NCBI GenBank assembly: GCA_903888515.1
Contig: CAISTY010000128.1
Span: forward strand, 1-41,374
DNA length: 41,374 nt
Direction: 5' to 3'
DNA from: Akkermansiaceae bacterium
GTDB lineage: Bacteria; Verrucomicrobiota; Verrucomicrobiia; Verrucomicrobiales; Akkermansiaceae
Below are positions 3,152 through 11,162 of the stretch, piece by piece; position 1 is the stretch's first letter; each line of letters opens with the position of its first letter. The position numbers were made by a program, and so were the translations under genes. Below the pieces are notes generated by a model that ran no database searches, had not been told where the DNA came from, and was given only the letters and a program-made list of their open reading frames with translations.

Positions 3152-3376
3152 GTGAGCATTGATCAGATTGCACCAGAGGCCCTTCGCCTTCCGACCAGGG
3201 AGCGGGCGCTGCTTGCCGCCTCCCTATGGGAAAGCATTGAGGATCCCTACGTTCTTGCGGTGGATCGTAGCGACGAGGACGCGATCGTGCTGGCGCTGGC
3301 TCGTGACGCCGAACTGGAATCGGGGAAGGTCAACCCGCTTTCACATGCAGAACTGATGACGCGTCTGAGGGAATGA
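3152..3376 (+). CDS. Type II antitoxin, addiction-module component family
   Basis: A 74-residue acidic protein. Its opening, PEALRLPTRERALLAASLWESIEDP, is typical of the small addiction-module antitoxins (TIGR02574-type) that sit before ParE/RelE toxins. The C-terminal half, ending LSHAELMTRLRE, would be the toxin-embracing helix. It starts with GTG. The stop codon overlaps the toxin start (ATGA at 3373-3376), which implies translational coupling and the usual antitoxin-first order. Antitoxins of this class usually bind their own promoter with the toxin, but I see no clear operator in the 150 bases upstream. The pair sits in a repeat-rich accessory region, which fits mobile or stabilising roles. 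Confidence 0.82.
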   Translation: MSIDQIAPEALRLPTRERALLAASLWESIEDPYVLAVDRSDEDAIVLALARDAELESGKVNPLSHAELMTRLRE

Positions 3377-3666
3377 GGATTGACTACCATCCCGCGATTG
3401 CAGCGGAGCTTGAAGAGATTCGGGATCACTACGAATCATGTTCGTTAGGTCTGGGTTCCGATTTTATTGACGAGTTTGAACGGCAGATTTTGAAGGTGGC
3501 GGCAATGCCGACTCGCTGGATGGTGGTGCAGGGCGATATTCGGAGATGCCTGATGAAGCGGTTTCCCTACGCGATCTTGTTCCGGCTTATCGGGAACGAT
3601 TGGATACGCGTCACTGTGGTCAAGCATGAGAAACGGCACCCTGCCTTCGGACTACACAGGAGGTGA
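3373..3666 (+). CDS. ParE/RelE family type II toxin
   Basis: A 97-residue protein with the RelE/ParE fold signature: an N-terminal strand MRIDYHPAIAAELEEIRDHY, a long helix SDFIDEFERQILKVAAMP, the block GDIRRCLMKRFPYAILFRLIGND (strand-turn-strand with basic residues), and the closing VTVVKHEKRHPAFGLHRR. ParE members poison gyrase and RelE members cleave mRNA on the ribosome. The KRFPYAILF block and the terminal His/Lys-rich strand fit the ParE-like branch better, but this is inference. The start ATG overlaps the antitoxin stop. Both genes appear intact, so the module may be active. About 35 bases after the stop, repeat copy A begins. Confidence 0.85.
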   Translation: MRIDYHPAIAAELEEIRDHYESCSLGLGSDFIDEFERQILKVAAMPTRWMVVQGDIRRCLMKRFPYAILFRLIGNDWIRVTVVKHEKRHPAFGLHRR

Positions 3667-3700
3667 CGGTTCATTTCCTTTGCGCCACTTGGCGATCTTC

Positions 3701-3910
3701 GCGGCTTGGCGGTAAATCCTCATACGCTGAAAAAAGCCGAAGAATTCTCTTGCGGCAATGCTGCGGGGCCGATAGACGGGGATTGTCTGACGACGCTTTA
3801 CGGCGGAGGGGGACGCAGTCCGCACTTCCGGGCGGCATTTGTACCTTCTTATACCGCACGCTGTATAATAAGGACAATTGCCGCGCACGGCTTAATAAAA
3901 CTGTTGGCAG
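3701..3910 (+). repeat. Palindromic element, copy A
   Basis: A ~210-bp segment that recurs, inverted and diverged, at 10955-11162. It opens with a GGCTTGGCGGTAAATCC block, continues through GAAGAATTC and CCGATAGACGGGG, and contains a long hairpin at 3832-3884. The arms GCGGCATTTGTACC... and ...GGACAATTGCCGC pair over about 22 bases around an 8-base loop. The core is TTATAC-N8-GTATAA. It ends ten bases before the start of the next gene, and the other copy also ends shortly before a gene start in the same relative orientation. Confidence 0.75.
3839..3869 (+). promoter_or_regulatory. Candidate promoter inside the palindrome
   Basis: TTGTAC (3839-3844) and TATAAT (3864-3869) are spaced by 19 bases and lie within the two arms of the palindrome. 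Copy B has the same two hexamers at the same spacing. If real, the dyad would act as an operator over its own promoter and drive the gene beginning at 3920. The spacing is a little long for a housekeeping promoter, so this is a proposal from sequence only. Confidence 0.35.
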
Positions 3911-3919
3911 GAGAAGATT

Positions 3920-4336
3920 ATGAGAAGAGTAACCGCAATCCTTATCGCAACGATTTTCTCGGTCTCGGCGATGGAGGACAGTCCAGCGGTGGGGTTCTGG
4001 CTAGTCGCAACAAGGAGTCTGACGAACGCAGTAAATCAGGCGGGAGGACTGTCCAAGATCGACCAGGCCACGCTGGTTGGCATAGCTGAATGTCACGGTC
4101 ACTTCAACGGCCCTTGCGACCTTGTACTTCAAGCAGGCACCGCGCAGTTTCGGATCAAGGCAACAGACGACGGCAGAACCGTTGACTACGCCGTCACTTA
4201 CTCTTGGCCACAAGTCAAGGTTCAGGCACGACAATCCAGTGGCCGTGTCGAAGTGGGGCAGGATTTTGTCGCGAAGGCTGGATGGGAGAAGGACGACTTC
4301 GTTTTGGTCATGAACAGACTGAATCTGAAACAATGA
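3920..4336 (+). CDS. Small exported protein of unknown function
   Basis: A 138-residue protein I do not recognise. The N-terminus MRRVTAILIATIFSVSAMED looks like a signal peptide. The rest carries a single Cys pair (AECHGHFNGPCDL), which could form a disulphide after export, then a strand-rich half (AQFRIKATDDG, VDYAVTYSWPQVKVQ, DDFVLVMNRLN). An AGGAG ribosome site at 3908-3912 is well placed for this ATG. It follows palindromic element copy A directly and is followed by a hairpin resembling an attC site, so it may be a gene cassette. No enzyme motif is visible. Confidence 0.65.
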   Translation: MRRVTAILIATIFSVSAMEDSPAVGFWLVATRSLTNAVNQAGGLSKIDQATLVGIAECHGHFNGPCDLVLQAGTAQFRIKATDDGRTVDYAVTYSWPQVKVQARQSSGRVEVGQDFVAKAGWEKDDFVLVMNRLNLKQ

Positions 4337-4341
4337 GGACT

Positions 4342-4390
4342 TGCCAACCAGCAAATGCTCGGTACGGCTTCGCCGCCCGAGATTTGAGGC
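4342..4390 (+). other. attC-like hairpin, degenerate
   Basis: CAAATGCTCGG (4352-4362) pairs with CCGAGATTTG (4377-4386) if one G is extrahelical, around a CGGCTTCGCCG loop. This is the inner layout of an integron attC site. TGCCAAC (4342-4348) could be the outer box, but the matching GTTRRRY box is poor (TTGAGGC at 4384-4390). It sits between two small genes exactly where a cassette recombination site would be. It is either a decayed attC or an unrelated hairpin. Confidence 0.35.
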
Positions 4391-4405
4391 GCTGAGAGGA
4401 TAAAT

Positions 4406-4873
4406 ATGATTATGATTGATGAAGCAATCTCTGCGCTGAAAGCAATAAGTATAGCTGAACCGCGAATTGGCCCTCCGCCTTCCGCCGATCTAATCGCTGC
4501 AGCTGAGACTAAACTCAGTTGTAAATTCCCTCCGAGTTTTCTCAAGTTCCTGGCGGTTGCCGGCTCTTACCAGCTGTCTTTCTGGGAGACATACTGGGTC
4601 GGGCCATGCGATCGTGACGACATTGTTGAAATGAATCGGCAAGAACGAGAAGAAGCATCGTCTCCGTTGCCTTCATACCTTGTTGCGTTCTTTAATAATG
4701 GCATGGGAGACCAGATTTGTTTTGACACTCGCACCATTGACGACAATCGAGAATACCCGATTGTGTTTTGGAATCATGAACTGTCGCAAGAAGAGAACCT
4801 TAAACAACTCGAACAGATTGCTCCAAATTTTGCAGAATGGTTAATGGATGAAGTTAAAGCAAGCGACAGCTAA
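4406..4873 (+). CDS. SMI1/KNR4 (SUKH) family protein
   Basis: A 155-residue SUKH-superfamily protein. The hallmark is an N-terminal ADLIAAAETKLSCKFPPSFLKFLAVAGS segment at ~28-55 (helix, short turn with FPPS, helix ending in a small residue), followed by a strand-rich middle (SFWETYWVGPCDRDDIVEMN) and the late block SYLVAFFNNGMGDQICFDT. SUKH proteins often serve as immunity proteins against contact-dependent or polymorphic toxins; no such toxin is seen nearby, so the role here is open. GAGAGGA at 4394-4400 is a good ribosome site. The gene is visibly more AT-rich than the housekeeping genes of the window, which suggests transfer. Its stop codon lies inside the attC-like site, the normal arrangement of an integron gene cassette. 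Confidence 0.85.
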   Translation: MIMIDEAISALKAISIAEPRIGPPPSADLIAAAETKLSCKFPPSFLKFLAVAGSYQLSFWETYWVGPCDRDDIVEMNRQEREEASSPLPSYLVAFFNNGMGDQICFDTRTIDDNREYPIVFWNHELSQEENLKQLEQIAPNFAEWLMDEVKASDS

Positions 4874-4936
4874 CCAAGCACTCCATGTTATTTTTCAACC
4901 AGGCGGTTGAAAAAAACATGAGTGCAATCGTTAGGC
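4868..4936 (+). other. Integron attC-like recombination site
   Basis: All attC parts are visible in 69 bases. R'' is AGCTAAC (4868-4874) and R' is GTTAGGC (4930-4936, a perfect GTTRRRY). L'' is GCACTCCATG (4878-4887) and L' is CATGAGTGC (4917-4925); they pair fully if one C of L'' is left out, matching the extrahelical base that orients attC. A central stem TTTTTCAACC/GGTTGAAAAA closes on an AGGC loop. R'' deviates from RYYYAAC at one position. It follows the SMI1/KNR4 stop codon, and the next gene starts 18 bases after R'. No integrase gene is in the window, so this would be a cassette without a nearby intI. Confidence 0.72.
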
Positions 4937-4954
4937 CGACACCCCCGTCACACG

Positions 4955-5317
4955 ATGACCACCACCGAAGCACGAAAGATTGTTGAGTCACTGGCGGATG
5001 GTCGTTGCCCCCAGAACGGCCAGAAGCTACCGACGGACAGCGCGTATCAGCAGGCCGATGTTGTTCGTGCCCTGCTCATCGCAGCGAGGGCGCTTGAGCG
5101 AGTCGAGCGCATTGAGCGTCGCGCCGGTGAGTTGCCGGAGCACGCTGGCAGGGGTTGGGACGTTGCAGAGGAGCAGCGGCTTTGCGAGGATTTCGCCGCA
5201 GGCAAGTCGGTGGCAGAGCTTGCGCAGTTGCACCGGCGCACGCGAGGAGCGATTCAGTCGCGCTTGGAGCGCCTCGGCAAGATTCAGGCAAGAGAAGACT
5301 CAGGCAGGAATGCCTGA
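4955..5317 (+). CDS. Small protein with C-terminal helix-turn-helix-like segment
   Basis: About 120 residues. The N-terminal half (EARKIVESLADGRCPQNGQKLP, then SAYQQADVVRALLIAARALE) resembles a widespread uncharacterised bacterial family with a DG-P-G-LP pattern. The second half (EEQRLCEDFAAGKSVAELAQLHRRTRGAIQSRLERLGKI) is a clear helix-turn-helix-like unit of the kind that ends in SRL-KLG, so DNA binding is plausible. I chose the ATG at 4955, 18 bases after the attC R' box, because the similarity begins there. The last residues and the TGA stop come from an inserted hairpin repeat (5299-5318), so the natural C-terminus may have been replaced. Confidence 0.68.
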   Translation: MTTTEARKIVESLADGRCPQNGQKLPTDSAYQQADVVRALLIAARALERVERIERRAGELPEHAGRGWDVAEEQRLCEDFAAGKSVAELAQLHRRTRGAIQSRLERLGKIQAREDSGRNA

Positions 5318-5357
5318 GCTCCATTATGAAGAAAAGACTCAGGCAGGAAAGCCTGAG
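5299..5357. repeat. Tandem CAGGCAGGAATGCCTG hairpin repeats
   Basis: Two units of an AAGACTCAGGCAGGAA(T/A)GCCTG-type repeat. Each forms a 7-bp stem CTCAGGC/GCCTGAG over a 6-base AGGAAT or AGGAAA loop (5299-5318 and 5338-5357). A third copy at 11459-11478 has stem CACGGGC/GCCCGTG with the same loop, so the stem changes are compensatory. The first hairpin supplies the stop of the plus-strand gene and the second the stop of the minus-strand gene, so the pair could act as a bidirectional terminator. Confidence 0.8.
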
Positions 5358-6313
5358 CTCCCGTGGCGGATGACGCGGAGGTTTTTGCCGTGGACCTTGA
5401 TGTCTAGCAGAGGGTCGGCGGGGGTGGCGTGCTTGGTCATGCCGTGGCGGGTGACGGAGCCGTGCAGGATGACTTCCATGATGGTTCCGCGTCCGGCGTC
5501 CTGGCCGTAGAGCACGGGTGCCCAGCGCACATCCGCGCCGGGTTCCCACTCGGGCACGGCCATGGCGGCGAAGCAGACGTCGTCCATCATGGAGGCTTTG
5601 AGGTCGATGATGCGGGCGTTCTTTTTCTCGGCCGGGTTGGGGGTGTAGCCGACGCCGCGGAACGGCACGGTCCCCGACTCCCCGCCTGCGGCCAAGGCGA
5701 ACTGCACGCCATCGACCTTGCCGATCTGGAGGCCGTTCTCCTTGTGCAGGGACAACAACTTCGGATAGAGTTCGGCGGCGGCGGTCATGGCGATGATGGA
5801 CGCGTCGCGCGGGTCATAGACCGCGAGGTCGCCCATGGTGGTGCCCACCTCGATGGACACGGATTGCTTCTGGCGGGCGGAGGTGTGGTTGCCTAACAAA
5901 TCCTTGACCCCCTACGCCGCCTTGTAGATCACGGCGACCACGTCGAGGTATTGGGCGGCATCGGCAGTGGCGGCGATGACTTGTTTGGACGAGCGCTGGA
6001 GATTGGCCACCGAGACGCCCACGACATGGCCGATGATGCGGTCGCGGTAAGCTCCATACGCCTTGAGCATGTGACCGAGATTGGTTTGCTGGTGGAGCAG
6101 CGAGCGAAACGAATTGACAAGCACCTGCGGGTGGAAGCCGAAAACCCGGCCATGCATCTCCGGGCCGATGAGCGCCGGGAACGCGGTGGCCACACGGAAC
6201 CGCACGTAAGCCTTGAAGTCGTCGGGCTTGAGATCGGAAAAAACCGGGTCGTTGGCAGCCAGGAACGAAACCTCCGACTCCTCGGAGACGATGAAGGATA
6301 GGGAAGAAGTCAT
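5339..6313 (-). pseudogene. Gene of unknown function interrupted by an in-frame amber codon
   Basis: Reading minus from ATG 6313, a protein of 133 residues ends VAVIYKAA and meets TAG at 5914-5912. The same frame then continues GVKDLLGNHTSARQKQ... for ~190 residues to a TGA at 5339. The join reads as continuous protein, so one ~325-residue protein has probably been cut by a single substitution (CAG or GAG to TAG); readthrough cannot be excluded. I recognise no family. The N-terminal part is helical (VRFRVATAFPALIGPEM, LVNSFRSLLHQQTNLGHMLKAYG). The C-terminal part is strand-rich, with IIDLKASMMDDVCFAAMAVPEWEPGAD and a final DIKVHGKNLRVIRHG. The upstream edge abuts a TCATTGG microsatellite and the downstream edge a hairpin repeat, so flanking DNA has been replaced. 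A neighbouring broken gene (6797-7341) may belong to the same lost operon. Confidence 0.6.
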
Positions 6314-9488: not shown

Positions 9489-10391
9489 TCATTTGTTCTT
9501 GGGGTCTGATTGTGGTGCTACTAGCGGCGGCGCCTGTGACGAATTCGGTGGCACTGAGCCGAGAGTGGGAGATACGTTGCGTATCTCGTCGATTCTCAAG
9601 ACGGTTTCTAGCGGGTTCATCAACGCGTTGGCAAGGCTTTGCACCTCACCGGGTTCACGCAGCCCTTCCAAAATGAAGTATTTGCCCAGGGGCACCTGAT
9701 TGACTACCGGCGCGCACATCACCACGCCGTCCAGCACGATGGCAATGCGATCCCGTCCTGGGGTCATGTCCTTTGTGAGGGCGATCAACTTGTTGGTGCC
9801 TTCGCCATTGAGCGTGATGGAGACCGCATCGGCTTGCTGGGGCGAGGGCACGGCCAAGGCGATATCGTTGCCGCCGAGGGCGACGCGACGGTTCAGCAGA
9901 ATCGGAGTTTGGATTTCGTTGCCATCCGCATTCTTGTGTTTGTACATGTAGGCCTTGTAACCCGGGACGATTTCCGCACCGGCGGCGACGCGAGCGGCGA
10001 GACTCTTGCTATCGTGATTGCCAGGTTCGTCGTTGCGCGGGCTGACCTCACGCAGTTCGAGCTTGCCGATCTTTTCGAGGGTTTTCTTGATTTTGTCGAA
10101 CTCTTCCGGCGTGACGCCGGGAATTTGTAACAGGATGCCGTCGACTCCTTGGCGGGCGAGGATCGGTTTGGCCGTGCCCAAGCTGTTGAGGCGCTTCTTA
10201 ATGACCATGATCGCCTGGTCCACTTGGTGCGGAGTCACCGGCATCGTAGCGCCCGTATCATCGGTGCGCGGCTGGACGTGCAGGGAGAGTGCCGCGCCAC
10301 CGCGGATGTCAATACCACCCTCGCTGTCCGACTCCTTTTTGCAGGAAGGCAGAAGAACTAGAATGAAAAATGTCGTTAGGATGTATTTCAT
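9489..10391 (-). CDS. SecD-like periplasmic domain lipoprotein
   Basis: A 300-residue protein. From ATG 10391 it starts MKYILTTFFILVLLPSC, a lipoprotein signal with Cys17. The body resembles the large periplasmic part of SecD: HQVDQAIMVIKKRLNSLGT, then GILLQIPGVTPEEFDKIKKTLEKIGKLELREV (P1 domain), and NGEGTNKLIALTKD plus VVNQVPLGKYFILEG (head and base region). The six-helix membrane half of true SecD is absent, so it cannot be a translocase motor by itself. It may be a free accessory factor or an anchored domain with a changed role. An in-frame ATG nine codons upstream would destroy the lipobox position, so 10391 is preferred. The C-terminus is Pro/Ser-rich. It follows a small membrane protein gene on the same strand. 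Confidence 0.72.
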   Translation of the reverse strand: MKYILTTFFILVLLPSCKKESDSEGGIDIRGGAALSLHVQPRTDDTGATMPVTPHQVDQAIMVIKKRLNSLGTAKPILARQGVDGILLQIPGVTPEEFDKIKKTLEKIGKLELREVSPRNDEPGNHDSKSLAARVAAGAEIVPGYKAYMYKHKNADGNEIQTPILLNRRVALGGNDIALAVPSPQQADAVSITLNGEGTNKLIALTKDMTPGRDRIAIVLDGVVMCAPVVNQVPLGKYFILEGLREPGEVQSLANALMNPLETVLRIDEIRNVSPTLGSVPPNSSQAPPLVAPQSDPKNK

Positions 10392-10508
10392 ATGCTTGAA
10401 TTCTTGGCGGAACGCCATTGGTTGGCGCGCGGGTTCATGTTACCTTTCCAATTGTCGTGGGGGAAACTCCAATTGGTTGGTGCGCGGGACACGCGTGAAA
10501 GGGTGGAG

Positions 10509-10931
10509 TTAGTGGGGTGACGGAGGAGCTTCTGGTGTCTTGCCATCCGCGACTTCGGCAATTGCATTCCTAAGTATGAATAGCGAAATCAAAGTAATGA
10601 CAACAAACATCCCGGACAGAAACGATCCAAAAACTAATGGCTGCAAGCATTCTGCTGCTCCGGCCTGCCACGGCGATGGATCAAGCACACCCGACGAAAG
10701 CATATTCGTGAGAACCCTCTGCAAGTTGGAGGAGCAACCGTAGATGCCCAAAATGATTGGTAGCACGGAAGATGGCAGCAGTAATCGATTGAATAACACT
10801 GGACGCTTGAATGTAGCGCAAAGCGCACCAATGAAAAGGATCACGGAAAGCGCAATGAAATGCGCACTGCTTCCACATTCCATGTAGTAGTCAAGGAAGG
10901 TCTTTTGAACCATGGATGATATTGTAGCCAT
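10509..10931 (-). CDS. Small integral membrane protein
   Basis: A 140-residue protein with three likely membrane helices: AHFIALSVILFIGALCATF (~23-41), LLLPSSVLPIILGIYGC (~50-66) and LVFGSFLSGMFVVITLISLFIL (~98-119). The tail is short and Pro-rich. The layout faintly recalls MotA/TolQ/ExbB proton-channel subunits, but no diagnostic residue supports that. Palindromic element copy B ends about 24 bases upstream of this start, in the same relative orientation as copy A before the 3920 gene. It is followed by the SecD-like lipoprotein, 117 bases downstream, and may be cotranscribed with it. Confidence 0.65.
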   Translation of the reverse strand: MATISSMVQKTFLDYYMECGSSAHFIALSVILFIGALCATFKRPVLFNRLLLPSSVLPIILGIYGCSSNLQRVLTNMLSSGVLDPSPWQAGAAECLQPLVFGSFLSGMFVVITLISLFILRNAIAEVADGKTPEAPPSPH

Positions 10932-10954: not shown

Positions 10955-11162
10955 GCCGACAGTTTTAATATACAGCGCGCGGCAATCGTCCTTATTATAC
11001 GGCGTGCGGTATAATAAGGTACAATTGCCGCCCGGAAGTGCGGACTTCGTCCAGCGCCGCCGCAAAGCGGCGTTAGACAACGCCCCGTCTATCGGACCAG
11101 CGGCGTTTCCGCAAGGGAATTCTTCGGTTTTCTTCACCGGCATGGATTTACCGCCAAGCCGC
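10955..11162 (-). repeat. Palindromic element, copy B
   Basis: Inverted relative to copy A (3701-3910) and similar over nearly the whole ~208 bp. Its hairpin at 10979-11031 is better preserved: CCTTATTATAC and GTATAATAAGG form a perfect 11-bp dyad around an 8-base loop, and outer arms GCGGCAAT/ATTGCCGC extend the pairing to ~22 bases per side. TTGTAC and TATAAT again lie 19 bases apart on the minus strand. It also contains CGCCGCAAAGCGGCG followed by GTTAGAC. A GCCAAGCC-type repeat follows immediately. Confidence 0.75.

Follow-up and report, generated by a model that had tools for sequence, protein, structure and literature searches.

How gene cassettes come to stand in a bacterial chromosome without an integron integrase beside them is the question raised by a short segment of the 41,374-nucleotide contig analysed here (contig C128, hereafter the window), which belongs to the 5.3-Mb, 309-contig and 93% complete assembly of an Akkermansiaceae bacterium. 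A first-pass annotation, made from the letters of the sequence, had described an attC-like site attached to an SMI1/KNR4 gene and had suggested a chromosomal cassette cluster devoid of integrase. Integrons normally have a single attI beside their integrase. There is no IntI match anywhere on contig C128, as the annotation had stated for the window, and a complete integron (intI, attI and cassettes) is therefore absent from this locus. Clusters of attC sites lacking an integron integrase are known as CALINs (IntegronFinder, PMC9024848) and their origin is debated, off-target insertion, loss of intI and rearrangement all having been proposed (PMC8618304).

The segment at 4868-4936 on the plus strand (attC2) carries the complete anatomy of an attC site. 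Its R'', L'', L' and R' boxes all lie where the first-pass annotation had placed them, as does the extrahelical C at 4883; a second canonical extrahelical base, the A at 4890, is added here. The site reads as R'' (AGCTAAC, 4868-4874), an N8 spacer (CAAGCACT, 4875-4882), the extrahelical C, CATGTT (4884-4889), the extrahelical A, a stem strand (TTTTTCAACC, 4891-4900) followed by the loop AGGC and by GGTTGAAAAA, then AACATG (4915-4920), the partner of CATGTT, an N9 spacer (AGTGCAATC, 4921-4929) and R' (GTTAGGC, 4930-4936). The R' box fits the GTTRRRY motif perfectly and R'' pairs with it at nearly all positions. The reference geometry, R''(..AAC)-N8-extrahelical base-6 bp-extrahelical base-variable stem-6 bp-N9-GTTRRRY, was derived from the attCs of annotated plasmid integrons, among which it is the only one found, and attC2 has the same spacing (R''-N8-extrahelical C-6 bp-extrahelical A-stem-6 bp-N9-GTTAGGC). 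In a scan for this geometry attC2 scored 29.1 on the plus and 22.3 on the minus strand, a bias also seen with known attCs. Plasmid-integron attCs score 21.8-30.2 on their right strand, and the maxima in random sequence generated by two Markov models (9.55 Mb each, one strand, 19 Mb in total) were 24.1 for window composition and 23.3 for local composition. The bottom strand folds with -21.4 kcal/mol (z = -5.9), a value equalled by 0 of 200 shuffles.

The first-pass annotation had proposed an attC covariance model as a check. With a model of our own, R1, for which 13 attC cores of plasmids and 18 of relatives were used, and none of the window, attC2 ranked first in an unfiltered search of the window (20.7 bits, E = 0.011). 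This outcome is favourable in rank and modest in E-value, probably because R1 is biased to other attC families. The filtered R1 search of stretches of its own genome left attC2 unlisted, as did the whole-genome search, in which 150 of the 2641 candidates were scored, and the unfiltered search was needed. A pattern search for R''..R' that ignored structure returned 87 matches vs 227 in a reversed control and, showing no enrichment, proved useless. Judged by its sequence and predicted fold, 4868-4936 is a real attC site, of which the bottom strand is predicted to be recombined by IntI.

The gene preceding attC2 (4406..4873, plus strand) encodes a 155-aa protein which was correctly recognised as SMI1/KNR4 (SUKH), with Pfam matches to PF14567 (1.7e-18) and PF09346 (8e-18), and forms a cassette covering about 4392-4930. 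In an array on another contig of the genome (C17) the R'' of each of the three testable cassettes is the exact reverse complement of the R' at its 5' boundary. The SMI1 cassette does not obey this complement rule: its R'' is AGCTAAC and its 5' boundary GCTGAGA, a mismatch for which decay of the junction is the sole explanation that we can offer. The next gene (4955..5317, plus strand, 120 aa) begins with an ATG 18 nt past attC2, as described earlier, and is not followed by an attC, which leaves it a candidate cassette gene only; GCCTAAC at 5891 was rejected as its R'' because it lies inside a minus-strand coding region. Neither the SMI1 protein nor the 120-aa protein has a match in 58 relatives, which is the expectation for acquired cassettes. 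A relative of the SMI1 gene occurs in Anaerolineae (51% identity), and no attC was seen after it. Two tandem hairpins (gactcaggcaggaatgcctgagctcc) at 5290-5365 represent a short repeat also present near other cassette arrays of the genome, and a minus-strand reading frame at 5339-6313, with a single in-frame stop near 5912, appears pseudogene-like.

A second hairpin of similar design had been noted at 4342-4390. The resemblance holds for its 8/9 spacing, which is that of attC2, but the element is better bounded at 4342-4397 (plus strand) and is degenerate (attC1). It consists of R'' TGCCAAC, extrahelical G 4357 and A 4364, and R' GCTGAGA; its fold is modest (z = -1.7), R1 gives it 12.0 bits (E = 1), and its geometry score of 18.2 lies at a level that null sequence reaches about 60-77 times per Mb and strand. 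Its R'' (4342-4348) is the exact reverse complement of GTTGGCA at 3903-3909 (plus strand), which lies directly before the ATG (3920) of a gene for a 138-aa protein (3920..4336, plus strand). This exact complementarity implies that the 138-aa gene is a cassette, of about 3904-4391, and that the hairpin, whose position is the one predicted by the complement rule, is a decayed attC. The protein has a signal-peptide-like N-terminus and belongs to no Pfam family. The window thus holds two attCs, one canonical and one degenerate, 0.5 kb apart; for a CALIN, two or more attCs within 4 kb of each other and no intI nearby are required.

The box at 3903-3909 is also where a dispersed repeat ends, which was recognised when the window's flanks were set against those of relatives. 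The copy in question occupies 3667..3905 (plus strand); its last ~170 bp are common to most copies and its left part is variable, the flanks further left being unrelated or made of other short repeats. Within it lies a conserved core of ~80 bp (81 bp here, 3825..3905, plus strand), whose conserved left half ends at G 3903, with the crossover placed at G|TT. Twelve copies of the core, 94-100% identical, are present in the genome; a dedicated search for the repeat returned 28 own-genome matches including secondary ones, and 12 copies were aligned. Their near-identity stops at ..ATAAAACT|GTT, beyond which the copies continue into different first cassettes (GTTGGCA, GTTAGCC, GTTCGCC, GTTCGGT, GTTCTGC, GTTAGGC, GTTGTCT), with a start codon 12-37 nt further on. 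The repeat is found upstream of attC arrays, in the right orientation, on contigs C137, C42, C126, C271, C37, C118 and C146. A second core in the window (10959..11038, minus strand) has GTC in place of GTT and is probably decayed; a 140-aa ORF (10509..10931, minus strand) directly follows it, after which no attC was found. The window also has a short gene and then a ParE-like toxin gene (PF05016, just below cut-off) at 3154-3666, directly upstream of the first attI copy, and a minus-strand gene at 9489-10418 whose 309-aa product matches SecDF P1 domains.

In three relatives this core adjoins an integrase gene. Of 72 other genomes of the genus, 10 have the core, mostly in one or two copies, and in G006, G087 and G074 it follows intI on the same strand at a distance of ~115-130 bp; the G074 gene is broken by frame changes. 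On contig C118 of the genome under study, the core follows by ~110 bp a relic of this intI type which is 96% identical over the last 28 residues; the window and the other own copies lack such an adjacency. The end of the core, AATAAAACTGTT, is close to the published attI2 core, AATAAAATGTTRRRY / AATAAAATGTT (PMC12901181). Direct repeats inside the site are strong in one variant family only and moderate in the main family, and are given no weight here. A scan of 3600-4000 revealed no sigma-70-type site at 16-18 nt spacing, so that a cassette promoter (TTGTAC-N19-TATAAT by eye) is to be considered as a possibility only. The core includes an 11-bp inverted repeat (CCTTATTATAC / GTATAATAAGG in most copies) and, in most copies, the palindrome CCGCGCGCGG. 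Further attI-like families with other palindromes are present on C113, C135, C245, C240 and C111 (L168-L170, L172, L046); some of them end in AACACT or AAAACT before GTT, and the one on C111 follows an intI relic. Group II introns are known companions of integrons, and a sequence starting GTGCGCCGAGCC..AAGCAAGGCGCTTCTT, whose start looks group II intron-like, follows the last attC of L120, L124 and L126 as well as the GTT of the L046 site.

If the repeat is an attI, the R' past the crossover belongs to the first cassette, and the R'' of that cassette should complement it. An exact 7-mer complement of R' was present within 1100 nt downstream in all 12 testable own copies, two of which are variant-family sites, and in 20 of 23 when the copies of relatives were included. 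When R' boxes were shuffled 20,000 times among copies, the means were 1.9 (own) and 3.0 (all) and the maxima 8 and 10. Among the 12 own copies, 9 have an unmistakable native-type attC at the predicted place; so do at least six of the eight copies of relatives in which the 7-mer is present. The own exceptions are the window, with its degenerate attC, L158, without an unmistakable attC, and L157, where the 7-mer, at +1010, falls outside any attC and the nearest attC matches at 6 of 7 positions. The first-cassette genes after these attI copies (L156-L169) mostly encode a signal-peptide-like or membrane N-terminus. By its conserved left side, its diverging right side, its place in relatives and the complement test, 3825-3905 is, as far as sequence comparison can tell, an attI-like site, and IntI is predicted to bind and prefer it. 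The cluster is therefore not the bare series of attCs first envisaged: it starts at an attI-like site that has at least 12 copies in the genome.

Cassettes, too, are spread over many contigs. With 150 of the 2641 candidates scored, the whole-genome R1 search gave at least 45 attCs at E <= 1 on about 25 contigs, and 52 attCs were obtained from the own-genome stretches searched with R1. In the main attC family of the genome the sites are 83-99 bp long and start with AACAAG, and the first extrahelical base is mostly G; attC1 and attC2 fall outside this family. At C17:541 and C17:1287 the full sites (C17:505-598 and 1243-1335) are native attCs. The relatives have long attC arrays, one of which, in G004, comprises dozens of attCs adjoining intI. 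A search for intI elsewhere in the assembly, also advised by the first-pass annotation, identified a sole full-length IntI at C138:238-1545, which has the IntI-specific insertion and scores 225 bits against the IntI1 model; the gene has its 5' end at the end of the contig, on which no attC was detected. The idea of a chromosomal cassette cluster without integrase has thus held up, with attC2, attC1, about 50 further attCs in arrays and the IntI on another contig, and the same hairpin was not encountered at non-cassette positions, an observation that would have spoken against it. In relatives this attI is accompanied by another IntI type, the cognate one, with which the C138 enzyme shares only 37-38% identity and of which the assembly has C-terminal relics only (C111, C118, C5, C185 and some weaker matches). 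The cognate intI may lie in the part of the genome that the assembly lacks, it may have been lost, or the C138 enzyme may serve the attI copies. Several integron integrase genes per genome are found in G044, G051 and G004.

Taken together, 3825-4936 is very probably an array of integron cassettes that lacks an integrase and is anchored on an attI copy of its own, and the best reading of the window is that it holds one of many such arrays. An integron integrase would have recombined circular cassettes with the attI-like site at 3903, crossing over between the G and TT of the R' box of folded attC hairpins, and the product would be attI, the cassette of the 138-aa secreted-type protein with its degenerate attC, and the SMI1/KNR4 cassette with its canonical attC. 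Most attI copies have cassettes and none adjoins a complete integrase, which implies that the integrase acted, or acts, in trans. We infer that the recombining enzyme is an IntI, and any continuing activity of the sites, like the choice of the IntI serving them, would have to be read in the same way. Synteny with the radical-SAM neighbour provided no clean empty site.

As to the origin of the copies, we favour spread of attI itself. According to Hansson 1997, as cited in PMC12901181, attI sites recombine with each other and with secondary targets, and recombination between attI sites would be one route for such spread. The strongest competitor holds that each copy is a former complete integron minus its intI, so that the genome would contain CALINs produced by repeated integrase loss with no independent spread of attI; we regard this as possible, if on the doubtful side. 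It draws on C118 and C111, where the 3' end of intI survives immediately before attI, on other C-terminal intI relics (C5, C72, C140, C185) and on the presence of more than one cognate-type intI in both G006 and G074. Yet 11 of 12 family copies have no intI relic in the left flank examined, most copies share a leader of ~90 bp that is absent from C118 and is not the intI-attI spacer, and the cores are as similar as expected of recent copies while their left flanks are unrelated. Repeated loss of intI can explain C118 and C111 but not easily the other family copies.

The repeat could instead be a small dispersed element of MITE- or REP-like type, used as a secondary, attG-like cassette target and not as attI. 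Its multiple copies, its inverted repeat and its company of other short repeats would suit such an element, but its position just downstream of intI in three relatives and the likeness of its end to the attI2 core make this improbable. Still less probable is insertion of the SMI1 cassette alone at an off-target attG site: the absence of this and the following gene from the relatives and the mismatched 5' boundary would agree with it, but the sequence directly upstream holds, in the same orientation, a first cassette anchored on attI and a degenerate attC, and the attI core 500 bp upstream disfavours it. That the hairpins are chance structures or ordinary terminators, a reading to which only the weakness of attC1 taken alone lends anything, can be practically discounted, being refuted for attC2, which exceeds all null sequence, and at odds with the predicted position of attC1.

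Spread of attI as the favoured origin invites a broader and more tentative proposal, to which we would give a little less than even weight: that attI is here a dispersed, copied element and that the genome, rather than one locus, is the integron. One integrase acting in trans would then load cassettes, and permit their expression, at a dozen or more places in the chromosome, every one of them equipped with an attI and perhaps a promoter of its own. If the copies do work in trans, parallel expression could extend to the cassettes beside each attI, where a single array would allow expression of its first cassettes only. Clusters of cassettes without an integrase are common; in this genome many of them are traceable to copies of a single attI sequence, which offers a concrete and testable route to their formation. 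Since attI is less conserved than attC (PMC3607928), other clusters may hide attI sites that have escaped recognition.

Integrons in Verrucomicrobiota are already known (PMC8618304), and so are integrase-less clusters and reverse-layout integrons; for a dispersed multi-copy attI we found no report in the open-access literature, which is not proof of absence as subscription papers mostly lie outside it. The window resembles a CALIN in having attC-bounded chromosomal cassettes and no intI nearby, but differs in that its array starts at a recognisable attI shared by about a dozen arrays and in that one of its two attCs is degenerate. In the Treponema chromosomal integron intI is transcribed toward attI and each integron has only one attI (PMC3607928), and in archaeal integrons attI is immediately downstream of intI (PMC9668308). 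By its sequence context, the core of the relatives lies where attI lies in integrons with an integrase gene transcribed toward it: intI, core and cassettes run in the same direction, as in the Treponema type, whereas in the genome under study copies of attI stand at many places without intI. Cassettes can also be inserted outside canonical integrons at secondary attG sites (Loot et al. 2024, Nat Microbiol, as cited in PMC11023631), but the target here is a conserved repeat which adjoins intI in relatives. With attI1 and attI2 of mobile integrons the site shares the crossover G|TTRRRY and, for the end of the core that was compared, a sequence near that of attI2, but it is present in many copies and adjoins no complete intI.
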